Source: Phragmitibacter flavus
GTDB lineage: Bacteria; Verrucomicrobiota; Verrucomicrobiia; Verrucomicrobiales; Verrucomicrobiaceae
Direction: 5' to 3'
Assembly: GCF_005780165.1 (NCBI RefSeq)
Contig: NZ_VAUV01000007.1
Coordinates: 124,001-188,000, forward strand
DNA: 64,000 nt
Below, piece by piece: positions 2,139-36,599 of this stretch; position 1 is the first letter of the stretch; the number at the start of each line of letters is the position of its first letter. The notes beneath the pieces were generated by a model that searched no databases, was not told the origin of the DNA, and worked only from the letters and a program-made list of their open reading frames with translations. A program made the position numbers and the translations under genes.

Positions 2139-4676
2139 TTATTGCCAGGGTCGGGTGAGGTCGAGGACGTGGAGGGCGCGACGTTTTTCGAAGTGGTAGG
2201 TGAGTCCGAGCGAGATGGACAGTTCGTCGTAGTTGGAGGTGCGGGCGGCGAGCATGTTTCCCCACAAGCTCCACGAGTCACCGAGCAGATAGGTGCCCTG
2301 GAAGGAAATGTAGCCAATAAAGGAGCTGTCAGTGGTGCTGGGGTAGGTGCCGGTGGAGTCGCCTTCGAGGGGGAAGATGGAGGAGGAGTCTTGATCGGCG
2401 CGTTGAAATCCGGCCCCCATGCTGCCGCCGAAGAGGACGTCTTTGCCGAGTTCGGACATGAAGTCGGCTTTGAGGAAAACCTGCACGTGGTTCTGCGGGC
2501 TGAAGTAGCCGCCGTGGCCAAAGGTGTATTGGTTCAGGTTGCGGGCGAAGGTGCTGTAGGTGAGCAGGGGGCCGACGCGGAAGTAGCTGAAATCGTTGAC
2601 CTTGATGGGGCGCACGATGGAGGCGGTGAGTCCGAAGTGGCCGTTGTCGGGCACGTTGGTGCCGAAGTAGTTGGCGGCTTTGATGGTGCCGGTGAAGAGG
2701 CTTTTTTCGTTGATCCAGTGACTGAGTTCGCCCTGCACCCCGGCGGCGCGGACTCCGCCCCAGGAGAGCTGGTTGACTTCATCCCGAAAGCCGACGGCGG
2801 AGAGGGAGGATTCCATGACGGGGTCGACGAACGCGCGGAGTGTCCATTTGCCTTCATCGTGATCGCGGCTGATGGAGGCGGAACCGAGGATGCTGGTTTC
2901 GACGTTGCTGTTGGTTTGCAGCACGCCAAACGAGATGGAGGGATTCCACAGCGACTCCCACTCAAAGGTGAAGCGCGCGGCGACACCACTGAAACTTTGA
3001 CCGGCGGCTTCGAGGATGCCGTTGTTGTTGGGATTGGAGATTAAGGCTCCGCCATCCCAGAAGTATTGAATGACGTCGGCCTGGAAATACCCTTCCTTGG
3101 TGGGGATGCGGGCGATGACGCGAGGGGCACCGATGACGTCGGTCTGGCGTTCGGTGGTTTCACCGGAGCGGGTGGAGGCGTCGAAACCGAAGAGAATGCT
3201 GGGGGCATCGATGCCGGTGTAGATACCGTAGGTTTGCGGATCGAGTTCGACGGCTTTGCGGATGCGGCCCTGACTGAAGTAGGCGGGGGCGAGGTAGCGG
3301 GTCTGATAAACTTGTTCGAGCGGGCCACCGAAGCGGTCGGCGAGTTCCTTGAGACGGTTCCAGCGGGCAAGTTGGGAGAGAGCGGCGTAGAGGCCTTCGG
3401 CGCTTTCTTCGTCGACACGTTGGGTGTAGAGGTTTTCGAATAAGATGGCGGCGCGTTCGATTTGACCGGCGCGCAGGTTGGACCAGGCGAAAAGCATGGC
3501 TTCACCACGGGTGAGTTGACGGGTTTCGGAGGCTTCTTCGAGGGATTGTGCGGCGGCTCCCGATTGGTTGGACTTGGAGGCGGCCACGGCTTTCTGGATG
3601 AGCACGTTGGCGAGGAGCTGGGACATGCGAGGGTCGGCGTCGGGCTTGAGTCGGGCGATGGCTTCGGCCTGGGCGAGATTACCACGGGAGAACTCGGCCA
3701 TGGCGAGTCCGTAGTAGGCCTCGTTGAGTTCGGGGTCCCATTCGATGGCAAGTTCGAACCAGCTGGAGGCGGTGTCGTAACCGGACTGGCGGTAGCTTGC
3801 CCAACCTAGGGCGGAGGCGAGTCCGGCATCGCGCAGTTCCATGGTTTTGTTGGCGACTTCTTCAAATCGGCCCTGACGCAGCATGAGGCCGTAGTCGACA
3901 ACCGGAACGGGCAGGGGAGTGGCGGTCGGAGGCGGAATGGCGGGCAGGGGGGCTTCGGTGATCTGGGGATCGGGGATCATTTGGGCGTCGGGATAGGTGA
4001 CGCCGCTGTTCGAGCTGGGGCCGGTGTTGGGTAGTTGGGTAACGGGTGCGGCGGGCAAAGGAGGACGGGGGCCGCTGGTGAGAGGCGGCTCGGGGAGACT
4101 GGAGGGGTAACCGTCGCCTTGTCCGATCATGGTGGGGTCTTCTTCGGCGTAAGGGAGATTGCCGGCGAAGAGGCCGGGTTCGACGATGGTGTATGGTTGA
4201 GGTTGTGGCTGTGATTGTGGCTGCGGCTGCGGATACGATGAGGGAGTGGGAACGGACGGGGCTCTTTGTGGAGCGGGTGCGAGTGCGGGAGCTGGGTTGG
4301 CACCGGGATTGGCTTCGACCAGAAGCCATTGTTTGTCGCCGACGGGCATGCCGGCAATTTGCGAGGCGGGGATGACGTAGTAGGTGCGACCATCGATGAC
4401 GGTGGTCATGGGCTGCTGGCTGTGGATGGGAGCAGGCGGAGGCGCGGCGACGGTAGTTTTAATGTTGGGAACGATGGGGGTCGACGTGGATTCGGGCGTT
4501 TCGTTCCCGGTGGTTGGCTGGCGGTGAACGCGGTTGATGCGATCGATTTGAGGAGCGGCGGTTGTTGGTGCAATGGGGTCAAAAGCCCGGGCGTTCTGAG
4601 TCAGGGTGGCGGCGAGGAGGGAGATGGTCGCGAGATGCCGATGCTGGTGCCGTGTGATGGGAGGGATGGAGGTCAT
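2139..4676 (-). CDS. bcsC: Cellulose export outer-membrane protein BcsC (short form)
   Basis: 845 residues from the ATG at 4676, which overlaps the bcsZ stop as ATGA; the longer frame to 4760 would run far into bcsZ. After a signal-like N-terminus come ~250 residues rich in Pro, Gln and Ala, then roughly four or five TPR-like helical repeats (about 290-510). A C-terminal ~330 residues with alternating beta pattern matches the BcsC C-terminal porin domain and ends in Trp-Gln. BcsC of enterobacteria is about 1150 residues with many more TPRs, so this periplasmic scaffold is much shorter. Role: passage of the glucan across periplasm and outer membrane. Assignment rests on operon context plus domain order. 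Confidence 0.82.
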   Translation of the reverse strand: MTSIPPITRHQHRHLATISLLAATLTQNARAFDPIAPTTAAPQIDRINRVHRQPTTGNETPESTSTPIVPNIKTTVAAPPPAPIHSQQPMTTVIDGRTYYVIPASQIAGMPVGDKQWLLVEANPGANPAPALAPAPQRAPSVPTPSSYPQPQPQSQPQPQPYTIVEPGLFAGNLPYAEEDPTMIGQGDGYPSSLPEPPLTSGPRPPLPAAPVTQLPNTGPSSNSGVTYPDAQMIPDPQITEAPLPAIPPPTATPLPVPVVDYGLMLRQGRFEEVANKTMELRDAGLASALGWASYRQSGYDTASSWFELAIEWDPELNEAYYGLAMAEFSRGNLAQAEAIARLKPDADPRMSQLLANVLIQKAVAASKSNQSGAAAQSLEEASETRQLTRGEAMLFAWSNLRAGQIERAAILFENLYTQRVDEESAEGLYAALSQLARWNRLKELADRFGGPLEQVYQTRYLAPAYFSQGRIRKAVELDPQTYGIYTGIDAPSILFGFDASTRSGETTERQTDVIGAPRVIARIPTKEGYFQADVIQYFWDGGALISNPNNNGILEAAGQSFSGVAARFTFEWESLWNPSISFGVLQTNSNVETSILGSASISRDHDEGKWTLRAFVDPVMESSLSAVGFRDEVNQLSWGGVRAAGVQGELSHWINEKSLFTGTIKAANYFGTNVPDNGHFGLTASIVRPIKVNDFSYFRVGPLLTYSTFARNLNQYTFGHGGYFSPQNHVQVFLKADFMSELGKDVLFGGSMGAGFQRADQDSSSIFPLEGDSTGTYPSTTDSSFIGYISFQGTYLLGDSWSLWGNMLAARTSNYDELSISLGLTYHFEKRRALHVLDLTRPWQ

Positions 4677-5782
4677 GGGACAAGCGATTGTTGATGGACG
4701 ATGCGGACGAGCAGAAGGAGGGCGGCGGAATAGTAGCCGTCGGCGGGGTCGACGATCCATTGGTCAGGATCGCGTTCGCGTCCGGTATTCAGCGAGAGTT
4801 CGTAGATGGCGCGGATGCCGGGGAGGGCGGGGTCGTGACCCTCATGGGTTTTGAGGTGGATTTTGCTGGGCAGGTTGGCTTCGGTGAACTGGGTCCAAGA
4901 CGCACGCAGGGCCTGGTTGAGGGCGGGTGTCTGGTTTTGCAGACCGGCCCATTGAAGGTAGAGCGGGATGCGGATGGCGTTGTAACCAAAGACGGGTTCG
5001 TAGCGTTCGGGAAGGGTGATGGGTTTGCCGATTTCCACCCAGTCGGGAGGGAGGTTGAATTTGCCGAACTGCCAGTCGTTGAGCCACTTGATGCCGTCGT
5101 TGATGAGTCGCTGCCAGACTTCGGAATCGACGGGCTGACTGGCGAATTCCTGAAGGGCTGGAAAAACCCAGTAGGAGGGGTTGGTGATGACGGAGTTCTT
5201 TTCAACGAAGCCGACCTGCCCGGGCAGGAGGATGAGCCGGCCATCGAAACCGACCACAATCATATGCTGGCGAAGGTCTTTGATGATGGCGTGTGCGGCT
5301 TCGGTCCACGCAGGATTACCCCACATTCGGGAGGCACGATAAAGCGCCCAGGCGATGAGGATGTCGCCGTCGCTGGCGTTGTTGGGGTCGAGGACTTTGG
5401 GCTCTGCTTTGGTCTCGGTCTCAGAAGATGGGATGCCCCAGCTCCAGGCGAAGAGGCGGTCGGATTCGCGCACTTGAAGATTTTTTTGGGTCCAGTTCCA
5501 GATGGACTCAAACGCGGCGGGATCCTGAAAATAGGTGGCGAGCAACATGCCGTATCCCTGGCCTTCGGAATGGGTGATGTTTTGATTAACGGTGTCGATA
5601 ACACGACCGGAATCGATGAAGTGGCGTTTGAAGACATCCCATTGAATTTGCATGGTGAAGGGGATGGTCGGGGCGGTGGTTTGCGACTTGAGGGGCAGCG
5701 GCAGGGAGAGGAGAAAAAGCAGCAGGACGCAGCTCAACGCTCTTCTGAGGGAAGAGGCGGGGAGTGGTGTTTGCGGGTGCAT
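4673..5782 (-). CDS. bcsZ: Periplasmic endo-1,4-beta-glucanase BcsZ (GH8)
   Basis: 369 residues from the ATG at 5782; an in-frame ATG at 5815 would add 11 residues and overlap bcsB, and neither has a good ribosome site. A hydrophobic signal segment ends near residue 34. The GH8 hallmark HSEGQGYGML holds the expected general acid E73, and NASDGDILIAWAL lies at 135-147. At GYNAIRIPLYL (266-276) an Asn, N268, sits where I recall the E. coli enzyme has the catalytic Asp, so the base may be different. BcsZ trims nascent cellulose in the periplasm and is needed for normal export. It sits between bcsB and bcsC, overlapping bcsC by 4 bp. Confidence 0.93.
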   Translation of the reverse strand: MHPQTPLPASSLRRALSCVLLLFLLSLPLPLKSQTTAPTIPFTMQIQWDVFKRHFIDSGRVIDTVNQNITHSEGQGYGMLLATYFQDPAAFESIWNWTQKNLQVRESDRLFAWSWGIPSSETETKAEPKVLDPNNASDGDILIAWALYRASRMWGNPAWTEAAHAIIKDLRQHMIVVGFDGRLILLPGQVGFVEKNSVITNPSYWVFPALQEFASQPVDSEVWQRLINDGIKWLNDWQFGKFNLPPDWVEIGKPITLPERYEPVFGYNAIRIPLYLQWAGLQNQTPALNQALRASWTQFTEANLPSKIHLKTHEGHDPALPGIRAIYELSLNTGRERDPDQWIVDPADGYYSAALLLLVRIVHQQSLVP

Positions 5783-5792
5783 GAAGTGGTGT

Positions 5793-7940
5793 TTATGAAT
5801 TGCGATTGCCGGCATTGGCGAGTCGGTGGACGAGCAGGGCGAAAAAGAACAGGATGCCCAAGACGATGGCGATCCACGAGTAGCGGATTCCTTGGGTCCA
5901 GCTGGGGAGGGACGTTTGGGCGAGGGAAGGCGATGTCTGGGTCGCTTTGTCCTGGCCGGGTTCGAGATGAGCAGGGAGAGTGGGAAGCATGACCTCGACG
6001 GTTCCGGTGCTGCGGTTGATCCAGGAGACTTGTCCGCTCATGCGCTGCCAGAGAGGGCTGCTGACCCAGTCGGAGACTTTGGTGGCGAGACCGGGTCGGT
6101 CGGGGCCGCTGACAATGAGCCAGTTGGCCTGTTCGAGACTGGAGGGTTTGAGCAGGGCGACGATGAGGCCGTCGTCGCTGGGTGTTTTTGAGACCGGCGG
6201 GATGACATCGGGGATGGTTTCAAAAGCCACGGCGGTGGGACGGCTGCCGTTTGACCAGCGGCTGTGGAGGTCGTCGGTTAATGGTTTGCCAAACAGGGCA
6301 GGAGGCAGGTTGAGGAGGTCGCTGCGGTCGCAGACGGCGATGACTTTCTTGGCATTCGTGGGAAGGCCGAGGGTGAAGCGGGTTTCAAGAAGAAGGGTGT
6401 TGCTGACCTGACTGAGCTTGGCGAGCAGGTTCCAGGTGGCCAGGAGCAGGTCGTGACGGCGGCCCATGATGGCGACGGTGATGCCAGAGCCGTCGGGATT
6501 GGTGACAAACGGGTAAGCGGCGCGGGCGAAGTTTTGCAGGCTGGTATCGGGCTGGAATCGCGAGGCGGGCGGGGCGGTGAAGCGGGATTCTGGGCTGATC
6601 AAAACATGGGGTGGGTTCCAGTCGCTGACGATGCCCGAGGTGTTGGCGAGCTTGAGGTTGGCGTGGTTGAGTCCGGGTTTAAGGAGGGAGGCTGGAATGT
6701 GGAAGTGGAGACTGCCTTGGGCAAGACTCTGGGCTTGCTGGCCTTGTCCGTCCTTTGATCCGTTATAGCGGATGACTTCGCCGTTGAGTTCGAGGACGAG
6801 ATGGGTGTCAGGTGGGGCTTCGCCGAGGAATGAGAGGAGAAGGTCGAGTTCAACGTTGCGGTCGCTGCCATCGTTTTCAGCGACGAGGGCGCTGGTGAGG
6901 AAGTCGAATTTGGCATGCCAGTGATTGTGGATGGAGAGTTCGGTGGTGAGGATGCCGAGGTCTTTGAAGCTGGTGATGGTGCCGGGGAGGATGGGGCTGC
7001 GTCTCACATAGGCGGCAACCTGGGGAAGTCGCAGGCCCTGGATGGTGGCGCCGGGGGTTGAGGGCATCGGCTGGTGGACGAGGCCGAGGGTGATGGCGGC
7101 TTCGAGCACCTCGGCATCATTGCGTCCGGTGACGACAAGGAGGAACCCCTGACCGCAGACGGGACTGGCGCGGAAGAAGAGGCGAGGGCCGGTGACGCGC
7201 TCGATCTCGACGGGTTGCAGGAGGTCGGCGAGTTCGGCAACGGTGCCAATGAGCAGGGTGTCGTTAAGATGGGAGGGCTTTTCGGTCCAATGAACAACGG
7301 GCAAAGTGTTGCCCATGCGAAGGGCGGCTCCTTGGATGGCGAGGGCGGCGGTGCGGGTTTTGATTTCGTTGAGATCTTCTTCCAGTCGGTAGCCGGGGAG
7401 GCAGAGGTGGAGTTGGGGACCGTAGGCGGCCTTGTCGCCGAAGAGGTCGTTGAGCATGCCCAGGGTGGGCACCATGGGCACCCAGGCGCCGGAGATGACG
7501 AGGCGGGTTTCTTTGATGTCGAGGGCCATCTGGCGCAGGCGCAAAGAGATCTCATTGCGACCGGAAAGGATGGCGCGTGGATCGATCTCGAGAACGGTGG
7601 ATTGATCGGCTTGCGGCCATTGGTTGGTAGGCTTGGTGAGCTTGCCGTTGATGCGGATTTCGAGGTCGGATGGCAGGCGGTCGTGGCGACCGGAGACTTC
7701 GATCAAGACGGAGCGGATCTCACGTCGATAGCTGTGAACATAAGTCATGTTCCAGGTATCGGAGGTATGCCAGACGGTTTTCTCGCCGGTGATACGATGG
7801 ACAAAGTCGACGCGGGTGGCCTGATCGCCTTGGGCTGAGGTTTGAGCGTGGCTGAGTGTGAATGGCAGCCATAGCAACAGCATTCCCCACAGGCTTTGCC
7901 TGATGATGTGGTGTTGGGGAATGGTTTTGGCTGGGAGCAT
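5793..7940 (-). CDS. bcsB: Cellulose synthase regulatory/periplasmic subunit BcsB
   Basis: 715 residues from the ATG at 7940; a TTG five codons upstream is the only alternative nearby. A signal sequence (WGMLLLWLPFTLSHAQ) leads into a long periplasmic beta-rich region with two repeated carbohydrate-binding/flavodoxin-like halves, typical of BcsB. A single C-terminal membrane helix at about residues 685-707 (WIAIVLGILFFFALLV) follows, which in the family packs against BcsA. BcsB guides the growing glucan away from the membrane. The name c-di-GMP-binding is historical; binding is by the BcsA PilZ domain. The gene starts 27 bp after the bcsA stop. Confidence 0.93.
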   Translation of the reverse strand: MLPAKTIPQHHIIRQSLWGMLLLWLPFTLSHAQTSAQGDQATRVDFVHRITGEKTVWHTSDTWNMTYVHSYRREIRSVLIEVSGRHDRLPSDLEIRINGKLTKPTNQWPQADQSTVLEIDPRAILSGRNEISLRLRQMALDIKETRLVISGAWVPMVPTLGMLNDLFGDKAAYGPQLHLCLPGYRLEEDLNEIKTRTAALAIQGAALRMGNTLPVVHWTEKPSHLNDTLLIGTVAELADLLQPVEIERVTGPRLFFRASPVCGQGFLLVVTGRNDAEVLEAAITLGLVHQPMPSTPGATIQGLRLPQVAAYVRRSPILPGTITSFKDLGILTTELSIHNHWHAKFDFLTSALVAENDGSDRNVELDLLLSFLGEAPPDTHLVLELNGEVIRYNGSKDGQGQQAQSLAQGSLHFHIPASLLKPGLNHANLKLANTSGIVSDWNPPHVLISPESRFTAPPASRFQPDTSLQNFARAAYPFVTNPDGSGITVAIMGRRHDLLLATWNLLAKLSQVSNTLLLETRFTLGLPTNAKKVIAVCDRSDLLNLPPALFGKPLTDDLHSRWSNGSRPTAVAFETIPDVIPPVSKTPSDDGLIVALLKPSSLEQANWLIVSGPDRPGLATKVSDWVSSPLWQRMSGQVSWINRSTGTVEVMLPTLPAHLEPGQDKATQTSPSLAQTSLPSWTQGIRYSWIAIVLGILFFFALLVHRLANAGNRNS

Positions 7941-7967
7941 GAAAAGGTTTCTCAATGGTCTTTGGGT

Positions 7968-10190
7968 TTAGCGGTCCATGGGGTTGGATCGCATCGAGAA
8001 AAGCTGGCGGAATCCGACCCGCAAATTTCTGGCGTAGCCGAGGAGGGACAGTCGGCCGACGTAGAGAAGGGTGCGAATGATGCCGGGGGCGTGCTCTTGT
8101 CGGCGTTGTTGGAAGTCGACCCACTTTTGGCTGTCGCCATAGAAAAGTCGCACGGCCGTTTCTAGGGTGGTCCAGTCGCCTTGATAAAACCGGGTGCCAA
8201 GCAGTGCCCTGGTGGGGCCGAGGTCGGGGGACATCACTTTGCGAACCATTTCGACTTTGAGCGTGGCGTTCGCACCGATGATTTCGATTTCGGCAGGCTG
8301 GGGGAAGGCGGGATTTTTCAGGGCGTCACGGGCGATGTGAATGCCGCAGCCGGAAGCGGACATGTCGGCGAGGGTGCCCTCAATGATTTCGTCGCCGTGG
8401 CGGATGCGGATGGGGGCCGAGACGGGGAAGCGGGGAGAGGAGCGGAGCTGGCGGGTTTCGGTCATGACGCCCAGGGCGCAGCCGAGCAACGCGAGGTTGA
8501 AACCTACCCAGAAAAGGGTGATCAAAGTGGGGGCAAATTCCGTGTCGGGAAAAGTGAGCAGTTTGTAGACGCCGCGGGTGGCGCAGGCGAGGTTGATGGC
8601 GAGCAGCACGTAAAACGGGATCGCCATTTTGGAGATAAAAGCGCGGTTCAAGGTCTGTGCTTTGGGCGTGACCTTGAACCGGCCGGATTTGGGGCGGAAA
8701 AGTGCCTGAATGACGACGGGGAGGCAGAAAACCGATTGGACCAGTTCGTAGATTTCGGAGATGAGAATCCAGCGGGTGCGTTTAAAAAGATAGTGGGAGA
8801 TGACGATGACCGTCAGCATGTAGGGCACGACGAAGGCGATGAAAGTCTCGTAATAGGCGCGGTAGATTTGCAGGTCGAAGAGCAGGAAGGCGGCGGGTGC
8901 CAGCATGTAAGTGAGCCTCGCGAAGGGAAAGAACCAGAACTGGCAGCTGCTGAGGTAGCAGAGGCGTTGGGCGGCGCTGAGTTTTGACTTGCGGAAGATG
9001 GGACTTTTGAGGCGGAAGATTTGGATCATTCCCTGCGCCCAGCGCATGCGTTGGACAACAAACGCATCCACGGTTTCGGCGGCCAGTCCGGCGATCATGG
9101 GTCTTGCGAGATAGGCGCTGTGGTAACCGCGTGAGTGGAGTTCGATGGCGGTTTCGGCGTCTTCGGTGATGCTCTGGCCGCTGAAACCACCGGTGATGTT
9201 GAGCCATTCACGACGCAGCACGGCGGCGGAGCCGCAGAAGAAGGAGCTGTTCCAGCGGTCGAGGCCCTGCTGGATGTTGCTGTAGAACATTTCGTTCTCG
9301 CTGGGCATGGTGTCGAACGTCATCAGATTGCGTTCGAAGGGGTCGGGATTGAGGAAAAAATGGGGCGTTTGGACGAGGAAGAGTTTGGGGTCTTCGAGGA
9401 AGAATCCGACGGTGTTTTCGAGGAAGTCGGCGGTCGGAACGTGATCGGCGTCGAAAATCACCACGAGGTCGCCATTGGTGTTGGTGAGGCCGATGTTCAG
9501 GTTGCCGGCTTTGGCGTGCTCGTTTCTTTCGCGGGTGAGGTAGGTGGCACCGAGTCGTTGGCAGAGGGCGGTCAGTTCAGCGCGTCGATTTTTAGCCTCC
9601 TCGGCGAGCAGAAGGTCTTTTTGATTGCACTTGGCGTCGGTGCCACCGTCGTCAAGCAGGTAGACATTGACGATGCCGTCGTAACGCATCTGGCGGGCGG
9701 CAACGAGAGTGATGGCGATAAGGTCGGGAGCTTCGTTGTAGCTGGGAACGAGCACATCCACCGAGGGAAGTTGGGCGGGATCTTTGCCGGTGAGCGGGAT
9801 GGATTCGCGTTTTTTGGGATTGGCGTTGACCGTGAAGGTCATCATGATGAAAGCGATGCCATAACATTCGGCGAACAGAAGGATGACGGCGCAGGTATAG
9901 CTGACCGGGTCGTGATACTCCATGGTGGTGCTTAGCCGCCAGACGAAGTAGCGGATCACAGTGAATCCCCCAATGGCAAGGATGAGGATGCGGATGAAGG
10001 GAGTTTCAGGCAGGAATCGTAGGACAAGCAAGGTGGCTGCCAGAATGCCTGCGAGGGCCATCTGGTTCTGAACGTCGGCTTCGGCATTGGCCAGCAGAAC
10101 CGCCGCCAGACCGGCAATCAGCGCGAGAGCGATGGAGAATGAGGATGCAGAAGGAGCGGTTGAGGAGGATGTCGGACCAGATTGGGTCAT
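7968..10190 (-). CDS. bcsA: Cellulose synthase catalytic subunit BcsA (UDP-forming)
   Basis: 740 residues. N-terminal membrane helices are followed by a GT2 domain with all processive-synthase motifs: DDG at 180-182, DAD at 247-249, FFCG near 317, TED at 342-344 and QRMRW at 380-384. Further membrane helices follow, then a cytosolic PilZ domain with RSSPR (583-587, the RxxxR motif) and DMSASG (609-614, DxSxxG). It polymerises UDP-glucose into beta-1,4-glucan and extrudes it; the intact PilZ motifs imply activation by c-di-GMP. First gene of bcsA-B-Z-C-diguanylate cyclase. No bcsQ, bcsE or bcsG is seen beside it. Confidence 0.97.
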   Translation of the reverse strand: MTQSGPTSSSTAPSASSFSIALALIAGLAAVLLANAEADVQNQMALAGILAATLLVLRFLPETPFIRILILAIGGFTVIRYFVWRLSTTMEYHDPVSYTCAVILLFAECYGIAFIMMTFTVNANPKKRESIPLTGKDPAQLPSVDVLVPSYNEAPDLIAITLVAARQMRYDGIVNVYLLDDGGTDAKCNQKDLLLAEEAKNRRAELTALCQRLGATYLTRERNEHAKAGNLNIGLTNTNGDLVVIFDADHVPTADFLENTVGFFLEDPKLFLVQTPHFFLNPDPFERNLMTFDTMPSENEMFYSNIQQGLDRWNSSFFCGSAAVLRREWLNITGGFSGQSITEDAETAIELHSRGYHSAYLARPMIAGLAAETVDAFVVQRMRWAQGMIQIFRLKSPIFRKSKLSAAQRLCYLSSCQFWFFPFARLTYMLAPAAFLLFDLQIYRAYYETFIAFVVPYMLTVIVISHYLFKRTRWILISEIYELVQSVFCLPVVIQALFRPKSGRFKVTPKAQTLNRAFISKMAIPFYVLLAINLACATRGVYKLLTFPDTEFAPTLITLFWVGFNLALLGCALGVMTETRQLRSSPRFPVSAPIRIRHGDEIIEGTLADMSASGCGIHIARDALKNPAFPQPAEIEIIGANATLKVEMVRKVMSPDLGPTRALLGTRFYQGDWTTLETAVRLFYGDSQKWVDFQQRRQEHAPGIIRTLLYVGRLSLLGYARNLRVGFRQLFSMRSNPMDR

Positions 10191-10374
10191 GAAAAGGAGA
10201 TGATGGCCGCCGCTCCCTTGAGTGAAAACACGAGCAAGGTGGTGGCTGCCATCGGGATGGGATTATGCAGTTAAGGACAGGTGGATGGGGAAGAATAGGT
10301 GAAGGCGAAACGGAGAATTAGTGAACTACCTGCCTGCAGCTTGAAAAGTTACTTGCTGCTTCGCAAAAAAACAT

Positions 10375-10388
10375 TGTCCTTTAGGACA
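10375..10388. promoter_or_regulatory. Palindrome TGTCCT-TT-AGGACA, candidate operator
   Basis: Perfect 6-bp arms around a TT spacer, about 185 bp upstream of bcsA and 210 bp upstream of the regulator gene. The half-site context CATTGTCCTTT (10372-10382) recurs exactly at 14701-14711, upstream of the PEP-CTERM protein gene. A two-fold site of this size fits a LuxR/NarL-type helix-turn-helix dimer; binding is inferred. Confidence 0.5.
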
Positions 10389-10396
10389 GATTGATT

Positions 10397-10412
10397 TCGG
10401 CAATTGTGCCGA
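10397..10412. promoter_or_regulatory. Palindrome TCGGCA-ATTG-TGCCGA, candidate operator
   Basis: Perfect 6-bp inverted repeat with a self-complementary-like ATTG centre, 23 bp (centre to centre) from the neighbouring TGTCCT/AGGACA palindrome, close to two helical turns. It could be a second regulator site or part of the same complex site. No matching copy was noticed elsewhere in the window. Confidence 0.4.
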
Positions 10413-10596
10413 TGCTTTTTTGCGTTAGCAAGCTAAAATGGCCCAATCGTTTTGGATGGCGTGAAAGAGCACGTTGTTTCCACCAGGCAGGAGACGGAGA
10501 ACAGACACTTTATTCTTGGTGAATCCCGTGCTGTAATGGAGGCGAATCAGTTGAGGGGGCAAGGCGAAGTCACCTATTCGATTTCAATGTATTGAT

Positions 10597-11259
10597 ATGA
10601 GCTACCGAGCAGACCATTTTTCCAGAAGTGTTCAAGAGTGCGTCTATGTGTTGGATGATGACCAGTTGCTGGTCCGGCTGATAGCACACATTTTGGAGAA
10701 CGAAGGCTACCAGGTGTTGTCGTATACTTGTCCGCTGGAATTCTTAAAGCTACGGTCGACAGCTCCAATTTGTTGTTTGTTGGTGGATTTGGAGATGCCT
10801 GGTATGAGGGGTTTACAGGTGCAGAAGGAGATCAAGGATCGCGGTTGGACGATGCCGCTGATTTTCATGTCGGCGCATGGAAGCATCGGAGAGGCGACGG
10901 AAGCGATGAAGTTGGGGGCCGTGGATTTTCTGGAAAAGCCCATGGTGGATCAGCGACTAGTGTCCGTGGTGGAGGATGCGCTGGAATCCTGCCGACAACG
11001 GAATCGGATGGTGGGTGAACTGAATGAGGCGCGTGACTGGCTGGACAACATGACGGAACGAGAGAAGGAGGTGATGAAGCTGCTTCTAGCAGGCTACATC
11101 AACAAGCAGGTGGCGGCGACTTTGGGGATTACAGAACGCACGGTCAAGGCGCACAGGGCGAGCATCATGGAGAAATCGGGAGTGGATTCGCTGGCGTTGC
11201 TGGTGCCACTGGCGATGAAGTCGGGTCTGACCACGGAATCCCGGGTGGTGATGAGCTGA
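10597..11259 (+). CDS. FixJ/LuxR-type response regulator (copy 1)
   Basis: 220 residues: an N-terminal receiver with acidic pocket (VLDDD), phosphoacceptor Asp in LLVDLEMPG, and the conserved Thr/Ser and Lys positions (MSAHG, LEKPM). A C-terminal LuxR-type helix-turn-helix follows (MTEREKEVMKLL; recognition segment ITERTVKAHRASIMEK). It is a DNA-binding transcription regulator, expected to be phosphorylated by a histidine kinase. It is divergent from bcsA and ends 9 bp from the convergent kinase gene at 11269-13353, a plausible partner. The output domain is nearly the same as that of the regulator at 14953-15630, so the two probably recognise similar DNA. Confidence 0.92.
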   Translation: MSYRADHFSRSVQECVYVLDDDQLLVRLIAHILENEGYQVLSYTCPLEFLKLRSTAPICCLLVDLEMPGMRGLQVQKEIKDRGWTMPLIFMSAHGSIGEATEAMKLGAVDFLEKPMVDQRLVSVVEDALESCRQRNRMVGELNEARDWLDNMTEREKEVMKLLLAGYINKQVAATLGITERTVKAHRASIMEKSGVDSLALLVPLAMKSGLTTESRVVMS

Positions 11260-11268
11260 ATGACGCGA

Positions 11269-13353
11269 TCAAGACTTGTCCGGCAGCGGCCCCGTCGGGA
11301 ATGTGACGGTCACTCGGGTGCCGCCTTCTTCCGGGCTTTCAACGATGAGCTGGCCATCAGCTGCGCGGATGAGGTCGTGGCAGAGGGTGAGTCCGACGCC
11401 GATGCCAGATTCACCAGAGGTGCCTTCGGTGCTGGTTCCTGGCCCTGCGAACAAGGCTTTCAGGCGGTCGGGTGGAATGCCGACGCCGTGATCGCGGATG
11501 GTGACGGTGATGGTTTGGTCATCGTCGGATCTCCAGGCCGTGACATCGATGGTCGAACCCGGGTGGGAGTATTTGATGGCGTTGCCAAGGAGATTGCGAA
11601 GAATCACCTGAGGGAGTGAGTGGGGGACTTTTGCGTGCAGATCGGTTGGAATGGAATGGTTGAGGGTGATGCGTTTCCGGTCGGCATTTTCCCTGAGGTC
11701 ATTCCAGGCGAGGAGCAGCGAGGAACTTAGGTTGACGCTCTTGTTTTTGGTCTGCTGGCGCTCGAGTTGGGATCGGCCCCAGGTGAGGAGGTTGGTGAGC
11801 AGGTCGAGCTGGAGGCGGCAAGCCTGGCTGACTTTGGCTGCCCAGTCGGTGATTTCGTTTTGTTGGAAGGTGGGGTCGTATTTGATGAGGCGGGCGAGGG
11901 AGTCGAGGGAGATGGCGGGTCCACGAAGGTCATGGCCGATGATGGCGAGGACGCGGTCGCGATCCTGGACGGCGTTTTTGAGTTGTTCGCTGAGTTGTTG
12001 CAGTTCCTGGGTGCGGCGAAGGACGTCGGCTTCGAGGTCGGTGGAGTAGTTGATGTGGAGCAAGTAGTGTTCTTCGCGGGTGAGGCGGCTGCGATAGATG
12101 AGGCAGAAGGAGAGGAGGATGAGGCTGAGCGCGTTGCCGATGAGGACGAAAAGGCACCGCTGGTCGACCCAGGCGACGGAATCATGCTCGAGGATGTGGT
12201 AGACGCTGAGCCCCGCACCGTAGGGCACGCAGGCGAGGACGAAGAAGAGACCGAGGGCACCGCCGCGTCGCCAATTTCGGGCGGCAGCCGTCATCAGGAG
12301 AAAGAATCCCAGCCATCCAAAGACTCCCAGGATGAACATGAATATCGGAAGGATGGTTGGAAAAAATCCCGCCACTGGCGTGAGGGGAATGAACATCCAG
12401 ATTTTCGCATTGAGCTGCAGGAGCCGGTCGATGGAGGGATCGGTGCGTTTGGTAGACAGCAGGGCGCGGATGAACTGGAAAAGGAAAGGGACGGAGGCGC
12501 AGATGAGAACGCCAGCGAGGATTTCGGCGATGGGGAGGGGGCTGAAAGGGAGGTGCAGGCTGAGGGCGTTGCGACCAAGCATGGTGCCGAGCCCATGGAG
12601 GAAGACGAACATGAAAAAATGCCATTGTTCGGGCTGTCGATGAAGGGCGAAGCGGAAATAACCATGTGCAGCGACGGTGAGCCAGGTGAAGGAGTAGCAG
12701 GCGAAGGCGGCGTAGAAAAAACGCTCCCAGCTGAGGTAGTGGTCAAGCATGGGCCACCAGAGAAACTTGGAGGGCATGCGATGGTAGTCGGTGACGAGGA
12801 GATAAGCCCGCTTGGTCTCTCCCGGCATGAGGGTGACGTTGAACGCATGCCAACGGAGCGGATACTCAAGCCCCTGCTGCGGCCATGGCGGACCTGCCTT
12901 CGAGGAGGTCCAGGTTCCGTCGGTTTCGCGTTGGTAAAGGACGGCATCGTCATACACACGGCGGATGAGATCAAAAACGCCGTGCTGAAAGCGGTCGGTG
13001 GGATTGGTGAAATCGAGTCGAAACCAGCGTTGATTGTGAGCTTTTTGATTGAGCTGGTCTGCCTTTTTTGAGGGAGGCAACGGCACGAAGATGCCGGTGG
13101 AGTCCAGCACAATGACTTCCTCCAACGTGTGCGTGACCTGCGGGAACTCGTCGGGAAGGTAGGCGGCGCGGACAATATCGGTGTCAGGAATGGTGAGAGC
13201 CCAGCTACCCTTCAGGGTGGCGATGGAAAGGCCGTAAAAACAGGCGCCAACCATGAGAATGATGCACACCAGAATGGCAATGGACATCCACGCCGGCGTA
13301 GGCAGCGGTGACAATTTCATGCCTTCCACAGGCCGGTCAGGCGGGGAGCTCAT
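11269..13353 (-). CDS. Membrane histidine kinase with 7TM-type sensor
   Basis: 694 residues from the ATG at 13353; a TTG at 13383 would add ten. One N-terminal membrane helix, an extracytoplasmic ~170-residue beta-rich domain, then about seven membrane helices (roughly residues 215-425), resembling the 7TMR-DISM layout. A coiled segment leads to a HisKA box (IIGHDLRGPAIS) and a HATPase domain with N box (NLLGNAIKYS) and G boxes (DHGVGIP, GIGVGLTL). There is no receiver. It would sense an envelope signal and pass phosphate to a separate regulator, most likely the convergent gene at 10597 or the paralogue at 14953. Confidence 0.88.
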   Translation of the reverse strand: MSSPPDRPVEGMKLSPLPTPAWMSIAILVCIILMVGACFYGLSIATLKGSWALTIPDTDIVRAAYLPDEFPQVTHTLEEVIVLDSTGIFVPLPPSKKADQLNQKAHNQRWFRLDFTNPTDRFQHGVFDLIRRVYDDAVLYQRETDGTWTSSKAGPPWPQQGLEYPLRWHAFNVTLMPGETKRAYLLVTDYHRMPSKFLWWPMLDHYLSWERFFYAAFACYSFTWLTVAAHGYFRFALHRQPEQWHFFMFVFLHGLGTMLGRNALSLHLPFSPLPIAEILAGVLICASVPFLFQFIRALLSTKRTDPSIDRLLQLNAKIWMFIPLTPVAGFFPTILPIFMFILGVFGWLGFFLLMTAAARNWRRGGALGLFFVLACVPYGAGLSVYHILEHDSVAWVDQRCLFVLIGNALSLILLSFCLIYRSRLTREEHYLLHINYSTDLEADVLRRTQELQQLSEQLKNAVQDRDRVLAIIGHDLRGPAISLDSLARLIKYDPTFQQNEITDWAAKVSQACRLQLDLLTNLLTWGRSQLERQQTKNKSVNLSSSLLLAWNDLRENADRKRITLNHSIPTDLHAKVPHSLPQVILRNLLGNAIKYSHPGSTIDVTAWRSDDDQTITVTIRDHGVGIPPDRLKALFAGPGTSTEGTSGESGIGVGLTLCHDLIRAADGQLIVESPEEGGTRVTVTFPTGPLPDKS

Positions 13354-13383
13354 GAAGCTTTGATACGATTTTCCATTAGCCAA

Positions 13384-13855
13384 GCGAATGAATAGACTCG
13401 CTTATAAGCTACACTTAATGTTGTGGAGAACAACAATAAGGAAATGGGCACTCAAACCGCGTGTCTTAAATCGGTGATGGTGTCGCGATTTTCGCGGCAA
13501 ACCTGCCAAGGCCAATGACCGGTTCGGTCTGGGGCCCCGGCGTTCAGCGGGGAGATGGCATTGGGGCCTCGTTCCAAAGACCAGTCAACGAACCGGTGAT
13601 TTGCGGCTCAGGGCGGGATGGGAGTGAGGTGAGGGAAAAAGAATATTCAACGCCCTGACTGGTGATGAAGCGAACATTGATGGAAGTGTTTCCACCTTTG
13701 CCTGAAGAGGGAAGAACCACATGCGAATGCCCTGGGGGGTTAGACCAAAGGGCATTCGGCATGTGGCAATGGGGGTCGGGGATTTTTAGGGGTTTACGGG
13801 GATTTTTGATGGTAGTCGGGGGAAATGGGTGGGCTTGGGCTTGAGTCTAAACCCC
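13384..13855. other. Intergenic spacer upstream of the 7TM kinase
   Basis: About 470 bp between the kinase start and the PEP-CTERM gene stop. It holds an inverted repeat at 13419-13435 near the kinase start. An open frame at 13544-13762 (minus, 72 codons) has no recognisable domain, signal or ribosome site and I do not call it. The stretch near 13770-13820 has repeated GGGGATTTTT-like words. No RNA gene is seen. Confidence 0.4.
13419..13435. promoter_or_regulatory. Inverted repeat TGTTGT-N5-ACAACA upstream of the kinase
   Basis: Perfect 6-bp arms with a 5-bp spacer (GGAGA), 66 bp upstream of the kinase ATG. The size fits a dimeric helix-turn-helix site. Function is inferred from position only. 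Confidence 0.35.
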
Positions 13856-14635
13856 TCAGCGACGACGGCGGAAGATGCACAGGGCACCTGCGGTGAGGAC
13901 CAGCAGTGCGCCGCTGGGTTCAGGAACAGGGACCACCGGAGGGGTCACAGTGAATTTGCCGACGAGGTGTGCAGTGGCAGATTTGCCCTCTTTCACATGA
14001 AACTGGTCAATGCTGCTAAATCCGTCTCCAGAGACCGTTCCAAAGCCAAGTTGCAGGGAATACGAATTGCCCATGGCATCCTGAAAGTTGAGCGGGGCGG
14101 AGGTGTTGCCCAGCACAATGATGTCGGCATCGGCGTAGGGATCGCCGGTGTTGGTGGTGTTGGTCAGGATTTGGGTGAACACCGTGTTCTGGTCTGGCAG
14201 GCCCGCCGGATTGACGAACGAAAACTCCAGCATGAGGTCGACCGACTCAGCTTCAGTGCCGGCGATGATGGTGCCGTTTTTGTAGTAAAGGTCACCGAGG
14301 GTGAAATAGGTCTCGGGTGAGATCTCGTTGAAATCAAAACCGTTGAATTCCAATTTCGAGGGGTGGCTGTGTTCGTCAGCGGTTCCCCACATGAAGCTTG
14401 AGCCGCCATCATAAATGGACGAGACCATGCCACTGGGACCAGCGGGATTTTGGAATTCGCCTTGCACCGAACCCGTGAAGGCTGATGTTGTGGGGGTGGC
14501 TTGGGCGGAGGCAGTGCCAACGGCCGTGATCCAAGCGAGCAAGAGGGATGCCTTGACGGCATTTCTGGTCAGACGGGACTTGGGGGCGATGGCCGGACGA
14601 AGAGTTTGGTTGGGGGAAGAGGGATTGGGTTTCAT
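13856..14635 (-). CDS. PEP-CTERM exported protein, choice-of-anchor-K-like
   Basis: 259 residues from the ATG at 14635; a TTG three codons upstream is less likely. An Arg/Lys-rich N-terminus leads to a signal helix (ASLLLAWITAVGTASAQ). The ~180-residue body is rich in Gly, Asn, Thr and Asp. The C-terminus is a PEP-CTERM tail: VPEPSG, a hydrophobic helix, then FRRRR. Such tails are recognised by exosortase and mark proteins for the cell surface, often alongside exopolysaccharide production. The body resembles choice-of-anchor K proteins, from memory only. It lies between two FixJ-type regulators and shares an upstream word with bcsA. Confidence 0.82.
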   Translation of the reverse strand: MKPNPSSPNQTLRPAIAPKSRLTRNAVKASLLLAWITAVGTASAQATPTTSAFTGSVQGEFQNPAGPSGMVSSIYDGGSSFMWGTADEHSHPSKLEFNGFDFNEISPETYFTLGDLYYKNGTIIAGTEAESVDLMLEFSFVNPAGLPDQNTVFTQILTNTTNTGDPYADADIIVLGNTSAPLNFQDAMGNSYSLQLGFGTVSGDGFSSIDQFHVKEGKSATAHLVGKFTVTPPVVPVPEPSGALLVLTAGALCIFRRRR

Positions 14636-14952
14636 GTCCGGCAAACAGACACCGATTCAAAAATCGGCGCTATTGCCCATGGGTGACGTGGCCCAAGATG
14701 CATTGTCCTTTCGTGCAAAGGATACATCCAGGGAATTTCGGGACGAAATAAAGTAACCCGTTGAAAATGAAATAAATCCACTAGGTCGTCGCTGTTCGAA
14801 TCGAAGGCGTAAATTAAGTATAAGCGGGTTCAATAGATCGACCGAGCCAGTGTCCGACGGTTGGCCGTCACTGAAAATTCAATCATTTCATCTGACGATA
14901 CAAAGTCTGGCCAAACGCGATCTCATTGTGCGTGTTTTCAGAAAATCCCTCT
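14636..14952. promoter_or_regulatory. Divergent control region between PEP-CTERM gene and regulator copy 2
   Basis: A 317-bp gap between divergent genes. It contains CATTGTCCTTT at 14701-14711 and an imperfect hairpin around it. The half nearer the regulator is AT-rich, fitting a promoter, but I cannot place the boxes. No credible ORF is seen apart from TTG-started extensions of the regulator. Confidence 0.5.
14701..14726. promoter_or_regulatory. Shared word CATTGTCCTTT with imperfect inverted repeat
   Basis: CATTGTCCTTT is identical to 10372-10382 upstream of bcsA. Here it is followed by CGTGC and AAAGGATACA, giving a CCTTT/AAAGG stem rather than the perfect TGTCCT/AGGACA palindrome. It lies about 66 bp upstream of the PEP-CTERM start. 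Both copies sit in a divergent spacer beside a FixJ-type regulator gene, so a common operator is a reasonable inference. Confidence 0.45.
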
Positions 14953-15630
14953 ATGTCCTTAAAGATAGACAGCCATCTAAACCGCTCCGACGTCACCTCC
15001 TCAATCAAACAGAAATTCGTCATGATTCTTGACGATGATGAGTTATTTAGGAGGCTAACCGAGTCTCAATTGAGAAGGCAGGGTTATCAGGTGAGTGCGT
15101 TTGAGAGGTCGGAAGAGCTTTTGCAGACACGGCCGCCTGGGCGCCTCGGGTGCGTTATCATGGATTTGAAGTTGCCTGGAATCAACGGCAGGCAGGCATT
15201 TCGCGAGTTGATCGCCGCCAAGTGGCAGCTGCCGATCATTTTTGTCTCCGCTTTTGCCACCATTCCTACCGTGGTTGATTTGATGAAAAGCGGAGCGGTA
15301 GATTTTTTAGAAAAACCTGTGGAGGACGTCCGACTGCTGCGTTCGGTGGAGCGCGCGATGCGGTTGGCTGAATTGGGAATGAAGCGTCAGACGGAGGCTC
15401 AATCGGCGATGCGGTCGGTGAGGTCGTTGACGGAGCGTGAAAAGGAAGTGCTTACACAGGTGGTTTCGGGAAGGATGAACAAGCAGATTGCTTGTGAACT
15501 GGGGATCAGCGAACGAACCGTGAAGGCGCATCGAGCGAACATCATGGAAAAAGTGGGGGTCGACTCGGTGGCCCGGTTGGTGCCCGTGGCCCTGCAGGCG
15601 GGGATTATGCCATTGCCGATGCCGGATTGA
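14953..15630 (+). CDS. FixJ/LuxR-type response regulator (copy 2)
   Basis: 225 residues from the ATG at 14953; the frame also opens from a TTG at 14926. Receiver with acidic pocket (MILDDDE), phosphoacceptor in CVIMDLKLPG, and the Ser and Lys switch residues (VSAFA, LEKPV). The C-terminal LuxR helix-turn-helix (LTEREKEVLTQV; ISERTVKAHRANIMEK) is almost identical to that of the regulator at 10597-11259, including the MEK-GVDS-A-LVP-A segment after it. The two are clear paralogues. It is divergent from the PEP-CTERM gene. The cognate kinase is not adjacent; the 7TM kinase at 11269 is the nearest candidate. Confidence 0.92.
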   Translation: MSLKIDSHLNRSDVTSSIKQKFVMILDDDELFRRLTESQLRRQGYQVSAFERSEELLQTRPPGRLGCVIMDLKLPGINGRQAFRELIAAKWQLPIIFVSAFATIPTVVDLMKSGAVDFLEKPVEDVRLLRSVERAMRLAELGMKRQTEAQSAMRSVRSLTEREKEVLTQVVSGRMNKQIACELGISERTVKAHRANIMEKVGVDSVARLVPVALQAGIMPLPMPD

Positions 15631-15736
15631 GGAGTAAACCGTTTTTAAGCAGCATCTCTGAAAGCGCCTGATGGGAATGCAGGGAGTGGAGATCGGCAAG
15701 TCACCAAAGGGAGCGATGGCGGGTGATGCCCACCTG

Positions 15737-15942
15737 TCGTCCCGGACGGACGATTTATACCAGCCCGGCATGTAATGCGGGGTGGCGTTTGCGACAGGGG
15801 ATAGCGTCCAACAGGGACGCTTTATTCGCGGAAAGGGGCGGCCTTCAGTGTGCATGATGCGTTCCTTCAGAACGCCAACTCCGATTGTGCAAAACCCGGC
15901 ACCTTGTGCCGGGCTCTTATGAGTCGTCCCGATGGGACGGGG
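15737..15942. repeat. REP/BIME-like composite palindromic element, copy A
   Basis: Modules in order: degenerate TCGTCCCGGACGGACGA; degenerate CCCGGCATGTAATGCGGGG; GCGTCCAACAGGGACGC (15804-15820); GCGTTCCTTCAGAACGC (15859-15875); CCCGGCACCTTGTGCCGGG; and TCGTCCCGATGGGACGGGG at the right end. Order and orientation match copy B at 19161-19364. The left two modules are eroded here. No transposase is encoded inside; REP elements of this sort are usually moved in trans by RAYT (TnpA-REP) enzymes, none of which is in this window. Confidence 0.8.
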
Positions 15943-16086
15943 AGGAGGGGCAATTGGCGTGGATTGGTGAGGCGACACTGGTGCGTTTCGAGCCTCGCAA
16001 TTGAAGATTTTTGAACGATGACAGGATCGGCTTCTTGTCGGTGAATTTGAGAAGGTATATCCCCGAACTTCGATACCATCAGGCGC

Positions 16087-16122
16087 AAAAAAACGGTGCC
16101 ACCTAGAAGGGTGACACCGTTT
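16087..16122 (-). terminator. Rho-independent terminator of glnII
   Basis: Read on the minus strand, AAACGGTG pairs with CACCGTTT around a partly paired interior, and the stem is followed by a run of seven T. It lies about 55 bp downstream of the glnII stop. Confidence 0.85.
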
Positions 16123-16176
16123 GATTAACTGCTCGGATGGAAGATCGCCAGAGGCAATCCTTCATCGATCCGATTC

Positions 16177-17193
16177 TTAGACTTCGACTGAGGCGACGGT
16201 CTTGAGAATGCGGGAGGCGATGGCGTATGGATCGCCTTGGGAGTTCGGACGGCGGTCTTCAAGGTAGCCTTTGTAGCCGTCGTTGACGAAGCTGTGAGGC
16301 ACACGAATGGAAGCGCCGCGGTCGGCGATGCCGTAGCTGAACTTGTCGATGGACTGGGTCTCATGCAGACCGGTGAGGCGCATGTGGTTGTCGGGTCCGT
16401 AGACGGCGATATGCTCGTCTTTGTATTTCTCAAAGGCGGCCATGAGTTTCTCGAAGTATTCTTTGCCGCCGACGGTGCGGAGGTATTCGGTGGAGAAGTT
16501 GGCGTGCATGCCGGAGCCGTTCCAGTCGGTGGCGCCGAGAGGTTTGCAATGGTATTCGATGTCGATTTCGTATTTCTCGCAAAGACGCTGAAGGATGTAG
16601 CGGGCAACCCACATTTCATCGGCGCATTTTTTGGAACCTTTGCCGAAGATCTGGAATTCCCACTGGCCTTTGGCCACTTCGGCGTTGATGCCTTCGTGGT
16701 TGATGCCGGCGTTGAGACAGATGTCGAGGTGTTCTTCGACGATCTGACGGGCAACACTGCCGACGTTGCTGAAACCGACGCCGGTGTAGTAAGGGCCTTG
16801 AGGAGCTGGGTAGCCGAACTCAGGGAAACCGATGGGTTTGCCGTCCTGGTAGAAGAAGTATTCCTGCTCGAAACCGAACCATGCGCCCGGATCGTCAAGG
16901 ATGGTGGCGCGGAAGTTGGTTGGGTGAGGGGTGACTTTGTCGGGCATCATGACTTCGCACATGACGAGCACGCCGTTGATGCGGGTGGAGTCAGGATACA
17001 CGGCGACGGGTTTGAGAACGCAGTCGGAGCTTTTGCCTTCGGCCTGTTGGGTGGAGCTGCCGTCGAAACCCCAGTAAGGAAGTTGTTCGAGGGTGGGGAA
17101 ATCGGCGAATTCTTTGATTTGAGTTTTGCCGCGGAGGTTTGGGACGGGGGTGTAACCGTCGAGCCAGAGGTATTCCAGTTTATATTTGGCCAT
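16177..17193 (-). CDS. glnII: Glutamine synthetase type II (eukaryote-like GSII)
   Basis: 338 residues from MAKYKLEYLW at 17193; the upstream frame to 17247 lacks family similarity. It makes glutamine from glutamate, ammonia and ATP. Length, the LWLDG N-terminus, GFDGSST, FGFEQEYFF, the KGQWEFQIFG metal/ammonia site and TDWNGSGMHANFS match the short GSII family of plants, animals, rhizobia and some actinomycetes, not the ~470-residue GSI. The GSI adenylylation tyrosine region is absent, so control by GlnE is not expected. No nitrogen regulator (glnB, ntrC) adjoins it. It is followed by a strong terminator, so it is probably monocistronic. Confidence 0.96.
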   Translation of the reverse strand: MAKYKLEYLWLDGYTPVPNLRGKTQIKEFADFPTLEQLPYWGFDGSSTQQAEGKSSDCVLKPVAVYPDSTRINGVLVMCEVMMPDKVTPHPTNFRATILDDPGAWFGFEQEYFFYQDGKPIGFPEFGYPAPQGPYYTGVGFSNVGSVARQIVEEHLDICLNAGINHEGINAEVAKGQWEFQIFGKGSKKCADEMWVARYILQRLCEKYEIDIEYHCKPLGATDWNGSGMHANFSTEYLRTVGGKEYFEKLMAAFEKYKDEHIAVYGPDNHMRLTGLHETQSIDKFSYGIADRGASIRVPHSFVNDGYKGYLEDRRPNSQGDPYAIASRILKTVASVEV

Positions 17194-17390
17194 GGATTTG
17201 ATATTGATATGTTGGTTTTGGAGTGCCGAAGGGCGATGGTCCCACACCCGGAATGACCGACTGGGAGACTGGGACTAGGGTAAAGCATGGCGTGTGCCAG
17301 TTGGATAGTGAAATCTTTTTGGGAGGGCGGATTGTCGTGCGTTTTTTCACGAGCTTGCCAGGGGACGGGGATGATGGAAGGATGATGGGA

Positions 17391-19130: not shown

Positions 19131-19160
19131 ATGTAGTCGGGAGGGCGCATTTTGGCCTTT

Positions 19161-19364
19161 CCCGTCCCGTTGGGACGACTAATTAAAGCCCGGCACAGGG
19201 TGCCGGGTTGCGATTGGGATTGGATTGCGTCCTACAGGGACGCTTCATGCGCGGTGCGTGTTGACCCTCAATGCACATGAGGCGTTCCTTCAGAACGCTT
19301 AGATCAATGCGACTAACCCGGCACCCTGTGCCGGGCTAATATGAATCGTCCCGTTGGGACGGGG
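19161..19364. repeat. REP/BIME-like composite palindromic element, copy B (most complete)
   Basis: A left arm with nested hairpins CGTCCCGTTGGGACG and CCCGGCACAGGGTGCCGGG (19161-19207) is mirrored by CCCGGCACCCTGTGCCGGG and CGTCCCGTTGGGACG at the right end (about 19317-19364), forming ~45-bp terminal inverted repeats. Inside are GCGTCCTACAGGGACGC (19227-19243) and GCGTTCCTTCAGAACGC (19282-19298). The element lies between the 3' ends of the Fur and peroxiredoxin genes and could also act as a bidirectional terminator. No ORF inside. Confidence 0.85.
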
Positions 19365-19421
19365 AATTATGCGTTGAATGCTGCCACATTTGTTGGGGGT
19401 TTTGGCTTGCGAAACTTCGAA

Positions 19422-36399: not shown

Positions 36400-36493
36400 C
36401 GGCGCAAGATGGGGCGAGGGCGGTGGGTGATGGAGCGGGTTTTCCGCGCATGAGGCTTCCTGACAGGACGCTGGTTCTTCACGAATTGGAAAA

Positions 36494-36541
36494 CTTGGCA
36501 CCTTGTGCCGGGCTGTTATGAGTCGTCCCGTTGGGACGGGG
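36494..36541. repeat. REP-like palindromic element, copy C (right end only)
   Basis: Contains a one-sided TTGGCACCTTGTGCCGGG version of the CCCGGCAC hairpin and then TCGTCCCGTTGGGACGGGG. Spacing and intervening GCTGTTATGAG match copy A almost exactly. The inner and left modules are missing. Again between two convergent genes. Confidence 0.75.
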
Positions 36542-36599
36542 AGACGAGTGACTGAGAAAGCTACGGATGAGCCTTTTTGCGGATTGAGGAGTGATGAGA

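Follow-up and report, generated by a model that had tools for sequence, protein, structure and literature searches.

The 64,000-nucleotide stretch of the Phragmitibacter flavus genome analyzed here (the window; contig C7 of a 5.91-Mb genome in 44 contigs) contains two divergent spacers, one lying between the cellulose synthesis gene bcsA (-) and a FixJ-type response regulator gene, FixJ1 (+), and the other between a PEP-CTERM protein gene (-) and a second such regulator gene, FixJ2 (+). The 11-base word CATTGTCCTTT occurs exactly in both spacers, referred to below as A and B. Because a TGTCCT core is enriched in both, one site has an inverted 7-2-7 geometry, and the recognition segments of the two regulators are closely alike, we tentatively favor the reading that the word belongs to a candidate local operator of FixJ1 and FixJ2 in these two spacers, a possibility that we place short of probable. 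The evidence for such a shared docking site is suggestive only and limited to this one spot in the genome.

Copy A of the word is found at 10372-10382 (+) in the bcsA/FixJ1 spacer, and copy B at 14701-14711 (+), 57-66 bp upstream of the start of the PEP-CTERM gene; they lie 225 and 252 bp from the start codons of FixJ1 and FixJ2, respectively. The initial annotation had reported these two exact copies in divergent spacers beside FixJ-type genes, as we also find, and had overlooked a third at 44662-44672 (-). This copy falls within an open reading frame (ORF, 42506-44827) encoding a ComEC-type protein (Pfam Competence) and is presumably due to chance. These are all the copies in the 5.9-Mb genome, and all three are in the window, and the reversed control word occurs once in the genome.

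The annotation also described a perfect palindrome at one copy and an imperfect dyad at the other, and the sequence agrees. At site A the palindrome TGTCCT-TT-AGGACA spans 10375-10388 and forms the center of a candidate operator, TTGTCCT-TT-AGGACAG (10374-10389), whose heptamers fit YTGTCCT-N2-AGGACAR and are inverted and 2 bp apart, the 7-2-7 geometry of the NarL sites described in PMC4549865. At site B the word is part of the dyad TGTCCTTT-cgtgc-AAAGGATA (14704-14724), with 8-bp arms 5 bp apart, which lacks 7-2-7 spacing. Single candidate heptamers are present as CTGTCCT at 10274-10280 (-), in the bcsA leader or promoter region, and as ATGTCCT at 14953-14959 (+), overlapping the FixJ2 start codon.

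We give more weight to the TGTCCT core than to the exact word, which taken alone is weak evidence. With spacer B extended to 14965, the two spacers contain five copies of the core (10274-, 10375+, 10383-, 14704+, and 14954+) against 0.27 expected, two of which (10375+ and 10383-) are the arms of one palindrome and one of which (14954+) shares bases with the start codon of FixJ2. No other 6-mer present in both spacers is as enriched as TGTCCT, and a top 6-mer equally extreme was obtained in 5 of 400 shuffles. Moreover, five of the seven TGTCCTWW sites in the window are in these two spacers.

FixJ1 (10597-11259, +) and FixJ2 (14953-15630, +; start options TTG 14926 and ATG 14953) are both response regulators with a LuxR/FixJ-type helix-turn-helix (HTH) domain, matching Response_reg and GerE. 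They are 44% identical, and each is the other's best-scoring paralogue among the candidates scored. Their HTH domains share 64% identity over 56 columns, a level equaled or exceeded in 13.5% of compared homologue pairs, and the earlier description of these domains as near-identical is thus overstated; this and the missed third copy qualify an observation that otherwise stands for its positions, divergent spacers, and palindromes. The recognition segments are identical at 13 of 14 residues, a likeness matched by 41 of 990 homologue pairs. By sequence, the closest solved relatives of the two regulators in the PDB are FixJ (5xso) and 1yio (entry title "response regulatory protein"), which we take to be StyR. 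Lys175, Val176, and His179 are proposed DNA contacts of StyR (PMC5874301). FixJ1 and FixJ2 both have K-A-A at the equivalent positions. This triad occurs in three of the 45 proteins aligned, FixJ1 and FixJ2 among them, and the three other paralogues examined from the same genome differ. With such similar recognition segments and the triad in common, FixJ1 and FixJ2 may well read similar DNA.

If the local operator reading is correct, CATTGTCCTTT would be the visible part of YTGTCCT half-sites for the DNA-binding domains of FixJ1 and FixJ2. The inverted pair at 10374-10389 would be gripped by a phosphorylated dimer, and the single heptamers at 10274-10280, at 14703-14709, and at the FixJ2 start (ATGTCCT) would serve as weaker sites or as cooperative ones. 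FixJ1 would control itself and bcsABZC, and FixJ2 itself and the PEP-CTERM gene, and there may be cross-talk between the two circuits. What the sequence itself shows is the words, their clustering, the 7-2-7 geometry of one site, and the similar recognition helices; the binding, phosphorylation by the neighboring kinase, the direction of control, and cross-regulation are our inferences.

A number of observations weigh against this reading, and many of them bear on the rival explanation that two AT-richer spacers came to share an 11-mer by chance, short palindromes being ordinary in such DNA, which we consider a doubtful though substantial possibility. A common word of at least 11 bases appeared in 104 of 2000 dinucleotide-shuffled versions of this spacer pair, and in 1195 of 20000 in a second run (5-6%), and 14 of the 153 real intergenic pairs longer than 150 bp in the window have a common 11-mer. 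Forty-eight distinct 11-mers are common to window spacers, 34 of them contributed by three spacers with repetitive extragenic palindrome (REP)-like repeats; the remaining 14, CATTGTCCTTT included, compare with a shuffle mean of 12.9. A spacer should by chance hold about 0.8 inverted repeats with 6-bp arms, and three genomic copies of the word, one of them in the comEC-like gene, are ordinary for the family, in which 45 of 68 genomes hold CATTGTCCTTT. By a window-based test the top 6-mer is at least equally extreme in 14 of 153 real spacer pairs, and 3 of 60 permuted half-sites, the real one included, match the site count with up to three mismatches, a count made on slightly clipped spacers, with spacer B ending at 14965 and the 14954 site omitted. 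In addition, the dyad of site A measures 14 bp and that of site B 21 bp, too great a difference for one dimer to occupy both in the same manner.

Chance accounts less readily for the features in combination. Of 20000 shuffles, 53 produced a common 11-mer with a 6-bp inverted repeat in it, and 7 had five or more core copies besides, although these statistics and joint criteria were picked after sight of the word. Among the real pairs, 5 of 153 combine a common 11-mer with an inverted repeat, namely this pair, another involving spacer A, and three REP-like pairs. The rarity of the core enrichment in shuffles also counts against chance, as does the position of both spacers beside paralogous regulators with like recognition helices. 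In relatives the word lies within an ORF at all 29 loci considered (one locus in each of 29 genomes, out of 44 others that have the word), versus spacer positions for two of the three copies here. ORFs and spacers were called from the longest nonoverlapping ORFs, a crude rule that labels nearly everything coding and that in the shared 11-mer analysis displaced, for example, the frames of bcsZ (4673-5815) and of a 356-residue protein (16177-17247); a codon-usage gene caller was dropped as strand-biased. The REP-like intergenic repeats, with palindromes CCGTCCCAACGGGA and GGCACCTTGTGCCGGGC, are located at 15631-16124, 19131-19421, and 36400-36599, and also near position 4560 of locus L180.

The initial annotation proposed a small regulon, of which the part that is plausible is a shared local operator; the genome does not support an ordinary regulon of several dispersed targets. 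Genome-wide, the palindrome TGTCCTNNAGGACA has no second exact site, and the word CATTGTCCTTT has only its three copies. Of 11 sites with one mismatch to the palindrome, nine are in ORFs and two outside. Allowing any spacing from 0 to 30 between the arms yielded five sites genome-wide versus four for the reversed control: site A, one outside ORFs in a REP-like spacer of contig C20, and three in ORFs. At up to two mismatches, TGTCCTNNAGGACA has 200 sites and the reversed control 129, an excess that composition may explain. The extended core TGTCCTTWA has 23 copies in 5.9 Mb, three of them here, against 67 for its reversed control, and 18 of the other 20 are in ORFs. A cluster of three on contig C8 was rejected as a regulon since the copies are coding (LVKDI) in two large ORFs. 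Neither of the two spacer copies was retained as a target, that on C6 belonging to a hairpin with a U-run after it and that on C26 lying between genes for a VWA-domain protein and a DNA-alkylation-repair-like protein, with no FixJ or PEP-CTERM link seen at either. In a six-frame search that scored 150 of 220 candidates, and that gave motifs over the cut-off in 2 of 14 genomes used as controls as well, the genome has at least 117 PEP-CTERM motifs over the cut-off among 126 matches. One of the 117 corresponds by position to the gene with CATTGTCCTTT upstream.

Relatives provide little to which the two spacers can be compared. BcsA was detected in 1 of 68 family genomes, this one, and in 4 of 386 order genomes (E <= 1e-80 or 1e-100), and since it gave no match at E <= 1e-80 in the remaining 67 members of the family, no orthologous spacer is available there. 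The rarity of BcsA in family and order suggests that the bcs operon was gained by transfer or has been widely lost. In the stretches read at the three other BcsA loci of the order, one of which stops 277 bases upstream of bcsA, there is no FixJ-like gene beside bcsA and no intergenic TGTCCT. The best-scoring relatives of FixJ1 reach 40% identity in the 68 family genomes outside its own genome and 36-38% in GTDB contigs, and those of FixJ2 40% in the 386 order genomes, with no syntenic case in any of these searches. The PEP-CTERM protein has matches in 58 of the 386 order genomes. Thirty of these loci were examined, our own included, and none of the other 29 has a FixJ-like gene within about 1.5 kb; three of the 29 carry TGTCCT in the stretch from 300 bp before the assumed start to 60 bp past it, fewer than 300 bp being available in six and the starts of L188 and L190 being doubtful. 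Neither the bcsA/FixJ nor the PEP-CTERM/FixJ linkage, therefore, recurred in the relatives read.

Site A also lies within a T-shaped dyad of about 83 bases (10351-10433), in which an outer stem with A/T tracts encloses two inner hairpins and which is terminator-like on both strands. It is accordingly conceivable, if unlikely, that site A is an arm of an RNA or terminator element instead of an operator and that its likeness to site B is accidental. The minus-strand hairpin (TGTCCTAAAGGACA, then ATGTTTTTTT) could attenuate the bcsA leader, and the plus-strand hairpin (TCGGCAATTGTGCCGA, then TGCTTTTTT) points toward FixJ1. Folding of the minus strand over 10335-10440 gives -35.2 kcal/mol (z -4.9), with none of 200 shuffles equally stable; the segment containing site A ranks fifth by z among the 242 intergenic window segments that were scored; and a terminator scan detected two opposed terminator-like hairpins at 10374-10420. 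An intergenic TGTCCTTTA elsewhere (L167:4369, contig C6) is likewise a hairpin arm followed by a U-run. Against the RNA reading, the hairpins have short stems (-5.9 kcal/mol on the minus strand), the U-runs begin three bases past the stem, and the six terminator-like matches in the region are no excess over the 4.3 (standard deviation 2.1) in shuffles. Rfam returned nothing relevant for 10150-15000, only two matches far below gathering scores, and the dyad has no second genome copy and no relative.

We hold the RNA or terminator reading open rather than favor it, and it is compatible with the operator reading of site A. Both would be at work in a strictly local circuit of two promoters, in which the FixJ-type regulators, as duplicates that share one DNA target, would cross-regulate the cellulose synthase operon and an exosortase-sorted surface protein and the bcsA operator would sit in the T-shaped leader, with binding and RNA folding (attenuation) in competition, a scheme that we regard as improbable. 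Three other readings were discarded. For a mobile repeat at site A, the 121-bp segment has no second copy, two short weak matches (E 0.03 and 0.6) looking like chance; a known riboswitch found no relevant Rfam match in 10150-15000; and a leader peptide with AAAGGACAATG as ribosome site and start, considered by eye, was rejected for insufficient spacing.

It is also possible, though very improbable, that the regulator genes and their spacers stem from an old local duplication and that the word is a functionless ancestral remnant. FixJ1 and FixJ2 are indeed each other's best-scoring match within the genome, and the distances from the word to their start codons are similar. An unselected 11-mer should not, however, survive at the 44% identity to which the proteins have diverged, and CATTGTCCTTT is itself the longest word common to the two spacers.

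The two spacers are AT-richer and about 400 and 300 bp long, and the genes around them are assigned from Pfam and NCBIfam matches. On the bcsA side, the cellulose synthesis operon bcsA-bcsB-bcsZ-bcsC occupies 2139-10190 (-) and consists of bcsA (7968-10190, -; TIGR03030 CelA, 812.5 bits), bcsB (5793-7955, -; BcsB match), a bcsZ-like GH8 gene (4673-5815, -; Glyco_hydro_8), and a bcsC-like gene (2139-4760, -; BCSC_C). An imperfect 19-bp inverted repeat is present immediately 5' of the bcsA start (10202-10253), and folding of the bcsA leader strand over 10195-10300 gives z -3.6. Convergent with FixJ1 is a 7TMR-DISM sensor histidine kinase gene (11269-13383, -; HATPase_c, 7TMR-DISM_7TM, 7TMR-DISMED2), whose product is a possible partner of FixJ1. 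The PEP-CTERM protein (13856-14644, -; start options TTG 14644 and ATG 14635) has a choice-of-anchor K domain (NF038131, 145.6 bits) and a TIGR02595 match of 21 bits at a cut-off of 16. Between the histidine kinase gene and the 3' end of the PEP-CTERM gene is a very stable hairpin region (13684-13820, z about -5.5 on both strands), probably a terminator.

FixJ1 and FixJ2 resemble StyR/TodT-type members of the FixJ family in that 1yio, presumably StyR, is the closest structure, the domain order is the same, and the recognition helix can be aligned. They differ in the contact triad, K-A-A in both versus K-V-H in StyR as given in PMC5874301, where StyR-like regulators are said to recognize, possibly, ATAAACN4GTTTAT. 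For the sites themselves a parallel is NarL, whose dimers, according to PMC4549865, bind inverted heptamers two bases apart at promoters that also carry single heptamers. Site A has the same inverted heptamers 2 bp apart with single heptamers nearby, and its minus strand has the core CCTAAAGG in common with the engineered NarL site TACCCCTAAAGGGGTA of PMC4549865. In contrast to NarL, the candidate heptamer here is YTGTCCT and not TACCCCT, and site B is without 7-2-7 spacing.

A two-component regulator and an upstream motif shared by PEP-CTERM genes are also known from the PrsK/PrsR system of Proteobacteria, as presented in PMC1569441, which describes a sigma-54 control motif for these genes. 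The present locus is comparable in linking a two-component regulator to a PEP-CTERM gene with an upstream DNA word in common. PrsR is a sigma-54-interacting regulator of NtrC type (PMC1569441), whereas FixJ1 and FixJ2 have no sigma-54-interacting domain, their Pfam matches being receiver and HTH-type only, and unlike in the PrsK/PrsR regulon the word stands upstream at 1 of 117 PEP-CTERM motifs. For Verrucomicrobium spinosum, 65 PEP-CTERM motifs were reported by other means, and its table row lists no Prs proteins (PMC1569441). Because that table has no such regulators for this species, PEP-CTERM control outside the Proteobacteria is left open there. A thin check of the open-PMC literature found no paper on a link between cellulose export and PEP-CTERM proteins through FixJ-type regulators. 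If the TGTCCT cores are indeed operators, they would provide a candidate for such a link, from cellulose export to a PEP-CTERM surface protein, together with a simple DNA word for laboratory tests. Otherwise this is an ordinary case of operators adjoining regulator genes, a known kind of gene control.

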